Shown here: one piece after another, positions 47,538-50,941 of the stretch | Layout of the letters: every line of letters begins with the position of its first letter | Position numbering within the stretch: position 1 is the stretch's first letter | From: Jannaschia aquimarina | GTDB lineage: Bacteria; Pseudomonadota; Alphaproteobacteria; Rhodobacterales; Rhodobacteraceae | Length of the DNA stretch: 64,000 bases | Reading direction: 5' to 3' | Assembly: GCF_000877395.1 (NCBI RefSeq) | Contig: NZ_JYFE01000074.1 | Location: 62,001-126,000 of the forward strand | Program-made: the position numbers and the translations under genes | Notes under the pieces: model-generated | The model's database searches: none | Seen by the model: the letters and a program-made list of their open reading frames with translations, nothing else | Told to the model about the DNA's origin: nothing

Positions 47538-50489
47538 ATGACCACCGACGCTCCCGACAATGCTCCTGACTACAAGGACACGCTCAACCTGCCGCAGACG
47601 GACTTCCCGATGCGTGCCGGCCTGCCCAAGCGCGAACCCGCCTGGCTGGCCCGCTGGCAAGAGATGGGCATCTACGACCGCCTCCGCGAGAAGGAGGGGC
47701 GGGAGCGGTTCGTCCTCCATGACGGGCCGCCCTATGCGAACGGCAATCTCCATATCGGCCACGCGCTGAACAAGACGCTGAAGGACATCGTGGTCCGCAG
47801 CCACCAGATGATGGGCTACGACAGTCCCTACGTCCCCGGCTGGGACTGCCACGGCCTGCCCATCGAGTGGAAGATCGAGGAGAAGTACCGCAAGAAGGGC
47901 CGCGACAAGGACGCCGTCGACGTGGTCGAGTTCCGCCGGGAATGCCGGGAATTCGCCGATCACTGGGTCGGCGTGCAGCGGGACGAGTTCCAGCGGCTGG
48001 GCATCACCGGCAACTGGGCCGATCCCTACCTGACCATGGCGCATCACGCCGAGGCGGTGATCGCGGGGGAGTTCCTCAAGTTCGTCGAGAACGGGCTGGT
48101 CTATCAGGGCTCGAAGCCGGTGATGTGGTCGCCGGTCGAGAAGACCGCGCTGGCCGAGGCCGAGGTCGAGTACCACGACCGGCAGGTGGACGCGGTGTGG
48201 GTGGCTTTCAACATTGTCCGGCCGGTTGGAACCGCGAATGATAACGGCGTGGTGTACGAGGACATTCGTTGGACAGGTAACGCTAAGGTTGTCATCTGGA
48301 CAACCACGCCCTGGACCCTTCCTTCGAACCACGCGATCTGCTTCGGCCCCGACATCAAATATGGAATCTACGAGGTTACCGGTACGCCTGACGAATGCTG
48401 GGTCAACGTTGGAGACGTCTTCGTCATCGCTGACAAGCTGGCAAGCGATGCGCTAAGTGCTATGCGGCTTGATACGGACATGTGGCGTTACCGTTCGGAT
48501 GTTCCGCAAGAGCAACTCGCACAGATTGTATGCGCCCACCCCCTGCGCGGGGCCGAGGGCGCAGACGGCGAGTGGGACTTCGACGTGCCCCTCCTCCCCG
48601 GCGACCACGTCACCGACGACGCCGGCACGGGCTTCGTCCACACCGCGCCCAGCCACGGGGACGACGACTACCAGATCGGGCTCAAGCACGGCCTGCCCAT
48701 GACCCACAATGTCGAGGTGGACGGGTCCTTCCGCGAGGGTCTGCCCTTCTTCGGCGGGCAATACATCCTCAGCCGCGACGGCAAGAAGCCCGGCGGCGCC
48801 AACAAGGCCGTCATCGACAAGCTGGTCGAGATGGGCGCCCTGCTCGCCCGCAAGCGGATCACGATCAGCGACGCCCATTCCTGGCGTTCCAAGGCGCCGG
48901 TGATCCGCCTGAACCGCCCGCAATGGTTCGCCGCCATCGACCGCGAGGTCGGCGACGGGCAGGACACCTATGGCGACACGATCCGGAAGCGTGCGCTGAC
49001 CTCGATCGACAAGCTGGTGGAATGGACGCCCAAGACCGGGCGCAACCGTCTCTATTCCATGATCGAGGCGCGGCCCGACTGGGTTCTGTCGCGTCAGCGC
49101 GCCTGGGGCGTCCCGCTCGCCATGTTCACCAAGGCGGGCGCCAAGCCGGACGATCCGGACTTCATCCTGAACGACCCGGCCGTGAACGCCCGCATCCTCG
49201 ACGCCTTCGAGGCCGAGGGCGCGGATGCCTGGTATCAGCCCGGCGCCAAGGCCCGCTTCCTCGGCAACGATCACGATCCCGACGCCTATGAGCAGGTGTT
49301 CGACATCCTCGACGTCTGGTTCGACTCGGGCTCCACCCACGCCTTCGTCCTGCGCGACCGCGAGGACGGGACCGAGGACGGCATCGCCGACGTCTATCTG
49401 GAGGGCACCGACCAGCATCGCGGCTGGTTCCATTCCTCGATGCTGCAGGGCTGCGGCACCAAGGGACGCGCGCCCTACAAGGCCGTCGTCACCCACGGCT
49501 TCACGATGGACGAGAAGGGCATGAAGATGTCCAAGTCCATCGGCAACACCATCGCGCCGCAGGATATCGTGGGCCAGTACGGGGCCGACATCCTGCGCCT
49601 GTGGGTCGCGCAGGTGGACTATACCGCCGATCACCGCATCGGGCCCGAGATCCTGAAGGGCGTGGCCGACAGCTACCGCCGCCTGCGGAACACGCTGCGC
49701 TTCATCCTCGGCAACGTCGCCCATCTCGACGGGGTCGAACCCGCCGATCCGCTGGAGATGCCGGAGCTTGAACGATGGGTCCTGCACCGCCTGTCCGAAC
49801 TGGACGAGGTCGTCCGGGACGGCTACCGGCGGTTCGACTTCTCCGGCGTGTGGACCGCGATCTTCCAGTTCGCGACCGTGGACCTGTCGGCGTTCTACTT
49901 CGACATCCGCAAGGACGCGCTCTATTGCGATGGCGACAGCCTGCGCCGCCGCTCGGCCCTGACGGTGCTGGACATCCTGCACCGCCGCCTCACGGCGTGG
50001 CTTGCGCCGATCCTGCCCTTCACCATGGAGGAAGTCTGGCTGGAACGCTTCCCCGGCGACGGCAGCTCGATCCACCTCGAGGACTTCCCCGAGCCGCGGC
50101 CCGGCTGGCGCGACGGGGCGCTGGCCGAAAAGTGGGCGAAGGTGCGTGCCGTGCGCCGGGTCGTGACCGGCGCGCTGGAAGTGGCGCGGCGGGACAAGGT
50201 GATCGGCGCCTCGCTGGAGGCGGCCCCCATCGTCCATATCGACGGCACCACCAAGGCGCTGCTGGACGACCTGCCCTTCGACGACATCTGCATCGTGTCC
50301 GGCATCACGGTGACCGATGCCCCCGCCCCCGACGACGCGTTCCGGGGCGAAGGGTCGGACGGCGTGGCCGTGGTCTTCGCCCATGCCGAGGGCGGCAAGT
50401 GCCTGCGCTGCTGGAAGGTGCTGCCCGATGTGGGCCATCACGGCCATGACGGCGTCTGCGGGCGCTGCGACGGGGCATTGGGGGGATGA
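47538..50489 (+). CDS. ileS: Isoleucyl-tRNA synthetase
   Basis: This 983-residue class I synthetase has [16 protein letters not shown] (HIGH signature) and [13 protein letters not shown]. The CP1 editing domain carries [13 protein letters not shown] and [15 protein letters not shown], and [10 protein letters not shown] (KMSKS) is intact. The C-terminal zinc site is CLRCWKV...CGRC. Codons 223-332 (48204-48533) have markedly higher A/T in the third position than either flank, but the reading frame and conserved residues are intact. The ATG at 47538 is chosen over an upstream frame extension. The stop overlaps the macro-domain gene. Confidence 0.96.
48204..48533 (+). other. Low-GC3 segment within ileS (possible recombinant tract)
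   Basis: By hand count about 41 of roughly 110 codons in this segment end in A or T. The ~40 codons on either side have only about one each. Rare-for-this-genome codons such as GGA, GTT, CTA, GTA, ACA and AGT cluster here, and the edges are abrupt. It falls in the editing domain and includes WTTTPWTLP. Most easily explained by intragenic recombination from a different donor. Confidence 0.7.
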
Positions 50490-50941
50490 AGGTGCGGGAG
50501 GGCGACCTCCTGCATCTCGCCGAAGACGGCGCGTTCGACGTGATCGTCCATGGTTGTAATTGTTTTCACACGATGGGGGCCGGGATCGCGCGGGCGATCG
50601 CCGCGCGCTTTCCCGCCGCATTGGAGGCCGACCGCGCCACACCACATGCCGCCCGCTCGAAGCTGGGGACCTATAGCCATGCCGACGTCACGGTAGCGGC
50701 CGGACCGCTGACGATCGTGAATGCCTATACCCAGTACCGCTGGGGCGGTCGGGGTCGACAGGCGGATTACGAGGCCATCGACGGCGCGTTCGCAGCGATC
50801 GCGCGGGACTTCGCGACCCGGCGGATCGGCTACCCCCTGATCGGCGCGGGGCTCGCGGGCGGCGATTGGGACGTGATCGAGGGCATCATCCGGCGACGGC
50901 TGGACGGCCTCGACCACACGCTCGTCCGATGGACGGGCTGA
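50486..50941 (+). CDS. Macro-domain protein
   Basis: This 151-residue protein has the macro-domain ligand loop [20 protein letters not shown], then YTQYRWGG and [16 protein letters not shown]. These match ADP-ribose phosphatase/Appr-1''-p processing type macro proteins. It would remove or hydrolyse ADP-ribose derivatives, although substrate evidence is absent. The ATG is within the ileS stop region (GATGA overlap), so expression is coupled to the tRNA synthetase. Confidence 0.9.

Follow-up and report, generated by a model that had tools for sequence, protein, structure and literature searches.

A sharply bounded low-GC3 tract in ileS of Jannaschia aquimarina lies in a fast-evolving segment of isoleucyl-tRNA synthetase

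Introduction

How does the gene of an essential cytosolic enzyme come to hold, within an intact frame, a tract of some 110 codons whose third positions depart abruptly from those on either side? The question is raised by ileS, the gene for isoleucyl-tRNA synthetase (IleRS), in a 64,000-nucleotide stretch of the Jannaschia aquimarina genome (the window; contig NZ_JYFE01000074.1, positions 62,001 to 126,000 of the forward strand). Synthetases are usually regarded as slow, vertically inherited housekeeping genes. The initial annotation of the window explained the tract as a patch brought in by recombination from another donor, suggested that altered editing or resistance to an IleRS-directed inhibitor might have been selected for, and named an inherited codon feature as the alternative. 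The tract resembles mosaic genes formed by homologous recombination between species, in which short segments are swapped between conserved flanks and identity and composition change abruptly. In PMC4866539, cell-surface genes are often recombination-hot and some housekeeping functions cold, with transferrin-binding proteins hot in all three species where they are found; unlike such mosaic surface genes, ileS encodes an essential cytosolic synthetase. In the open-licence literature searched, no title among the matches listed concerned recombination or hypervariability in ileS or in synthetase editing domains.

Composition and coding content of the tract

The shift in composition is real and sharper than chance. 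A/T-ending codons make up 41 of the 109 in the tract (codons 223-331), against 69 of 874 in the rest of ileS and one in 40 on either side (codons 183-222 and 332-371). The initial annotation had counted 41 among about 110 codons, with sharp edges and about one per 40-codon side window, and the count recurs exactly over codons 223-332 (41/110), as do the unbroken frame and the placement of the WTTTPWTLP motif (codons 254-262) within the tract. Codons 223-331 are the best two-change-point segment of the gene (Table 1), the maximum LR over 1000 shuffles being 14.1; from the way the flanks encode the same amino acids, 7.6 A/T-ending codons would be expected in the tract, and comparison with codons 30-222 plus 373-960 gives a Fisher p of 1.6e-15. 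Within codons 251-331 the A/T-ending fraction is.40 at conserved columns and.35 at variable ones (.07 and.07 in the flanks), so that it is the DNA stretch as a whole that differs, rather than codon choice at loosely constrained positions. A relaxation of codon choice at variable residues is thereby rejected, conserved residues being equally raised and variable flank residues not.

Table 1. Positions of the features discussed (window coordinates unless stated)
Feature	Position	Strand	Remarks
ileS, isoleucyl-tRNA synthetase	47538..50489	+	983 aa, frame intact; TIGR00392 760.7 bits; PF00133, PF08264
Low-GC3 tract, codons 223-331	48204..48530	+	Change-point LR 31.0; 41/109 A/T-ending codons
Length-variable insert, codons 223-250	48204..48287	+	12-46 aa across the genus (20-gene alignment)
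Codons 251-275 with threonine-rich editing motif	48288..48362	+	T255-T257 and N264 invariant (19 aligned IleRS)
Codons 276-331, editing-domain part	48363..48530	+	48% mean identity to congeners (flanks 81%)
Codons 368-377 (H368 to D377)	48639..48668	+	Not part of the tract; GC3 normal; all 19 rows have H368
valS with length-variable segment	G000 contig C47, 2390-5617 (outside the window)	-	Genus loci L228-L247

The genomic background was taken from the window and 40 further stretches, 828 kb of 4.10 Mb, in which a mechanical caller found 338 ORFs of at least 300 codons, some of them probably spurious. Five hold an internal low-GC3 tract with LR >15, valS ranking first (33.6) and ileS second (31.6); some of the remaining three may be spurious calls. 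In a second set of 422 other genes, drawn from 21 of the same-genome sources and from the surroundings of ileS, valS and leuS in the genus, no gene exceeds an LR of 15 and 11 exceed 10. The non-ORF DNA of the genome has a GC content of.667, and its A+T of.333 is near the.38 of the tract's third positions, so a foreign composition is not needed to account for them.

We take the tract to be the first half of the CP1 editing domain, and T255-T257 of the threonine-rich motif, N264, H368 and D377 to be editing-site positions, the last two presumably corresponding to H333 and D342 of Escherichia coli. All 19 aligned IleRS share T255-T257, N264 and H368; HIGH, KMSKS and D377 are present, and with the threonine-rich motif, N and H they make the protein a full-length IleRS with a putative editing site. 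In this it is like ordinary bacterial IleRS (TIGR00392; relatives PDB 8C9E and 1FFY), with full length, the expected motifs and one gene, and what sets it apart from them is the unusual divergence and low GC3 of codons 223-331. In the AlphaFold2 model (mean pLDDT 69) the insert is predicted to be poorly ordered, with pLDDT <50 at 232-234 and 236-244, and codons 251-350 are well predicted (84-91). Directly after the invariant N264 the window gene has H265 (48330-48332), where 19 of the 19 other genus genes have R.

Neither function once proposed for the tract finds support: the presumed editing residues are conserved, and a single IleRS match in the genome lies above the curated cut-off. A second or wholly divergent IleRS is absent, given that one match and a protein 76-81% identical to the 19 congeners. 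Four of the eight neighbouring ORFs scanned have a Pfam match (a sulfate permease, DUF3429, a LysE-type translocator and a macro-domain protein). The macro-domain match, in the ORF at 50486-50941 (+), is weak (E 2.2e-6); a four-base overlap of this ORF with the end of ileS suggests that the two are read together.

The tract among its congeners

Within the genus set of 20 ileS genes (that of the window and 19 others), a strong low-GC3 tract stands at the same place in three, the window gene, L011 and L015, and a weaker one in L009 and L026. Mean identity over codons 276-331 is 48% for the window gene, 51% for L011 and 31% for L015, and at least 58% for the other 17, against flanks of the three that are 81-86% identical to congeners; the nearest congener of the window gene has flanks 84% identical in amino acids. 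In the flank tree the three lie on separate branches, and their tract sequences are unlike one another. They form no clade in the tract tree, as one shared allele would, but the clade test does not reject such a grouping (p.076).

Tract and flank histories were judged by trees and AU tests. The flank sister of the window gene is L012 (support 99/96), whose A/T-ending fraction is.07 at the place of the tract and.03 in the flanks. Per-segment trees give two answers: in the 20-gene tract tree the window gene again pairs with L012, weakly (82/67) and on a branch of 0.72 against 0.18 in the flanks, and a wider, quick tract tree parts them, placing L012 within a supported set of eight congeners and the window gene outside it, a single clade for the whole genus not being rejected (p.70). 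Four clade tests on flanks and tract gave p of.059,.232,.065 and.117; of the control segments, codons 400-480 conflict more (.001) and codons 860-945 show no conflict (.373). PHI is significant for the genus ileS (z -5.3, positions 1+2), with a signal that is not localised to the tract.

The window tract is farther from outgroups than the genus median (same-order.72 vs.61, other-order.92 vs.76). Its best identity is.67 in its own genus and.68 in other genera, whereas the ten genus genes with least A/T excess average.86 and.77. In synonymous codons L015 matches its flank sisters L027 and L026 best (z 3.8 and 3.1).

Searches for a source

No donor of the window tract was found by DNA in 394 family genomes (best match 77% over 185 nt) or by protein in 295 (63% over 86 aa), two overlapping draws with at most one or a few genomes per genus. 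Searched against 385 genomes of the class, the L015 tract has its ten best matches, all outside the family, at 55-59%, and matches five same-family genomes of that draw, the window's included, at 40-56%; in a separate comparison it is 64% identical to the same-family L156 over 114 columns. A phage or plasmid source is rejected: phage records held no match to the window tract and viral contigs no relative of it, and plasmid records held just 45 bases, of an unrelated ileS. IleRS genes, whole or partial, do occur in 24 IMG/VR contigs classed as viral (L468-L491), at 29-58% identity, which is not close; many of these contigs are of 100-578 kb.

The same segment in other alphaproteobacteria

A survey of 100 ileS rows from the genus and from named alphaproteobacteria, 99 of them distinct (L082 is the same gene as L025) and one (L039) lacking the motif used for tract extraction, found LR >12 in 15 of the 99, and in 12 of these 15 the tract starts at codons 223-229, Bosea L099 and Brucella grignonensis L111 among them. 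The right edges of eight long tracts fall at 327-365. The tract of Bradyrhizobium L106 starts at codon 274 and ends at 501. Two genes, both of Rhodobacteraceae, have their best low-GC3 segment near the C-terminus and not in CP1, L071 of Sulfitobacter mediterraneus at 835-957 and L090 of Aliishimia ponticola at 865-946 (window numbering).

Three further genera, Bradyrhizobium, Bosea and one we call Defluviimonas-like (genus labels are taken from the named member of each group), were picked because one member had a tract, which biases the frequencies given for them. The Bosea set comprised 50 genes from 67 genomes and the Defluviimonas-like set 20 from 22, of which 19 are distinct from L049.

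In these two genera and in that of the window the CP1 segment evolves fast and shows little agreement with the remainder of the gene, and unusual alleles of it tend to be A/T-rich. Codon windows 220-339 diverge 2.1-4.5 times as much as the flanks in the Defluviimonas-like genus and the window's genus, with correlations to the flanks of -.24 to.31 and.03 to.24, respectively. Across Bosea, windows 220-379 correlate with flank identity at -.03 to.06, windows 380-499, likewise outside the flank set, at.30-.41, and other windows at.18-.73. A C-terminal window at codon 900 is also fast (2.1-3.8 times the flanks in four genera) and tracks the flanks better (.26-.50). Mean identity and A/T excess have rank correlations of -.76 in Bosea, -.66 in the Defluviimonas-like genus and -.56 in the window's genus. 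At 85% identity the Bosea alleles fall into 27 classes, of which 19 are singletons; rare alleles there are A/T-rich and unrelated to flank history, with an A/T excess of +.18 in singletons (n=19) and +.02 in classes of four or more (n=22). Each Defluviimonas-like gene shares.53-.79 of its tract DNA with its flank-nearest gene, against.78-.94 of the flanks, and the 24 pairs with flanks >.90 in amino acids have a mean tract identity of.61.

Sharing across genera is seen in L048 and Ruegeria L050, which are 99% identical in amino acids over codons 251-331, with flanks at 83-85%; their DNA is 85-93% identical over codons 261-380, so the event, if there was one, is old. None of 43,660 pairs combines flanks <.8 with a tract >.9, which argues against the idea that the distant relatives sampled have often exchanged the segment in recent times. 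In the underlying set of 296, some family genes stand twice because both draws supplied them (e.g. L119 and L149), and the best match of L358 "outside the genus" is actually a congener, since L106 and L307 are the same gene.

Replacement in Bradyrhizobium

In Bradyrhizobium, where sampling is dense, the CP1 segment has been replaced by recombination, and the replaced alleles are A/T-rich. Of the 70 genes fetched after a search of 195 genomes, 69 were readable, length variants being over-represented among 40 that were added; two (L307 and L358) show clear segment replacement and a third (L333) shows it in part. DNA identity between L307 and L309 is.965 before CP1,.706 inside and.942 after, and between L358 and L362 it is.950,.726 and.932. 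Inside the patch the flank sister ranks 67th (L307) and 61st (L358) of 68, its closeness gone, and A/T-ending codons rise to.34 from.11 outside in L307 and to.36 from.17 in L358. Even where the residues of L307 are unchanged, synonymous differences affect 35 of 65 codons at 221-320, against 15 of 178 before the patch. L307 lies.55 from outgroups (congener median.59) and is thus no farther off than its congeners, so its patch was not accelerated in place; L358 and L333 lie at.66 and.65. No donor of the L307 patch came to light in 248 family genomes, where the best match was 76%.

Outlying 40-codon windows (z below -5) lie within codons 201-480 in L307, L358 and L333, and occur in four other genes at 441 (L365), 721 (L349 and L376) and 881-921 (L351). 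As a rule the genus is quiet in CP1, with windows 220-339 at.5-1.7 times the flank distance and one main allele class with three exceptions. L333 (G568) has separate A/T-rich changed patches at about 221-320 and 461-480, the codons between (321-460) being nearly unchanged; one simple swap does not explain them, and the two patches may be neighbours in space.

A comparable segment in valS

The low-GC3 tract of valS in the same genome covers codons 528-640 of the called ORF. Across the genus the segment that follows WWGHRIPVWYGP is 24-116 aa long, with a mean identity of.31 against.78 in the flanks, and a correlation of.03. It forms a low-GC3 tract with LR >10 in 9 of 20 genomes. For 16 of 20 genes, identity to the segment of the flank-nearest gene is 14-31%, against flanks at 80-89%. 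Bosea valS (20 genomes) is ordinary at the same place, with an insert of 26 aa, an identity of.88, a rho of.59 and A/T-ending fractions of.08-.31 in the 26 insert codons against.04-.18 in the flanks, and the valS feature is therefore not general. The leuS control exceeds an LR of 10 in one of 19.

Import or change in place

We posit, mainly by analogy with the Bradyrhizobium replacements and from its likeness to the Bosea and Defluviimonas-like alleles, that the window tract is probably a recombinant patch from another donor. The first reading of this DNA thus stands as the likeliest one, qualified by the failure to find a donor in the genomes searched and by the weak pairing of the tract with L012. 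More broadly, the segment is a changeable one that recombination has swapped in one genus or more, and probably in that of the window too. The tract would then be an allele of this segment within an otherwise vertically inherited ileS, having entered by homologous recombination between conserved flanks (EAEVEYHD...WV on the left, CAHPL...GTGFVHTAP on the right). That the window gene acquired it by such exchange is our inference; the incoming allele would have been lower in GC3 than its new host, with adaptation still incomplete. The enzyme would still work, the editing residues being kept and the exchanged part plausibly being a separately folding, exposed piece of the editing domain, and the segment could be a hot spot either since swaps are tolerated or since change is favoured.

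The main competitor is fast evolution within the lineage, under relaxed or diversifying selection, with loss of the force that holds GC3 above 90% in this gene and drift of third positions towards non-coding composition; we give it a real but minority chance. In one version, insertions or divergence stop recombination at the segment and GC-biased gene conversion ceases there. In PMC4450053 such conversion, which ties GC to recombination, is proposed for most bacteria, and it could explain A/T drift in a non-recombining segment; recombining genes are there the GC-richer ones, unlike the exchanged segment posited here, which would be A/T-rich since the incoming allele is. Drift in place would suit a tract close in A/T to the genome's non-ORF DNA and a tract tree that retains the flank sister while the branch grows fourfold. 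Excess distance from outgroups, found in the window tract, L358, L333 and Bosea L418 (.92 vs.59), and the synonymous affinity of L015 to its sisters point the same way. It sits badly with conserved residues affected like variable ones while variable flank residues are spared, with L307 and Bosea L388 and L398, which have no excess outgroup distance, and with L307 and L358, which retain no closeness to their flank sisters. Between import from an unsampled lineage and fast change in place, import is favoured for the window gene because of its sharp edges, the conserved residues affected and the behaviour of the segment elsewhere.

The alternative named at the outset, an inherited codon feature (slow codons for editing-domain folding, or a conserved element beneath the coding sequence), draws on the recurrence of strong and weaker tracts at one place in the genus. 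It is nonetheless very improbable: a Fisher p <1e-6 is reached in just 7 of the 100 survey rows, L012 is without the feature, the three genus tracts lie on separate lineages with unlike sequences, and right edges differ among tracts. Least credible of all is a frame-compatible mobile element insertion or an assembly or contamination artefact: the 5' part is indeed a length-variable insert, but codons 251-331 can be aligned with ordinary IleRS and keep the editing motif, the tract DNA is matched once in its own genome, with no further copies, and not at all in phage records (the short plasmid match being that to an unrelated ileS), completeness of the genome is 99.7% and contamination 0.02%, and the pattern recurs in independent assemblies.

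A rather unlikely proposal for what drives such turnover is that, in several genera of alphaproteobacteria, surface segments of two essential class I synthetases, the IleRS CP1 segment and (in the window's genus) the ValRS insert after WGHRIPVWYGP, face a persistent pressure to change, as if recognised by an antagonist (a phage factor, toxin or bacteriocin), so that rare alleles would be recombined in and left A/T-rich with the catalytic residues fixed. The open-licence literature searched yielded no phage modifier of ValRS.

Implications

A segment that is about 40% different between species whose flanks are more than 90% identical would mislead trees built on whole ileS genes. For biochemical work the CP1 alleles supply a ready-made series of editing-domain variants from nature, and the A/T drift of the segment offers a place to test whether recombination holds up the high GC3 of these bacteria. 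The segment also raises the question of what drives change in an essential cytosolic enzyme.
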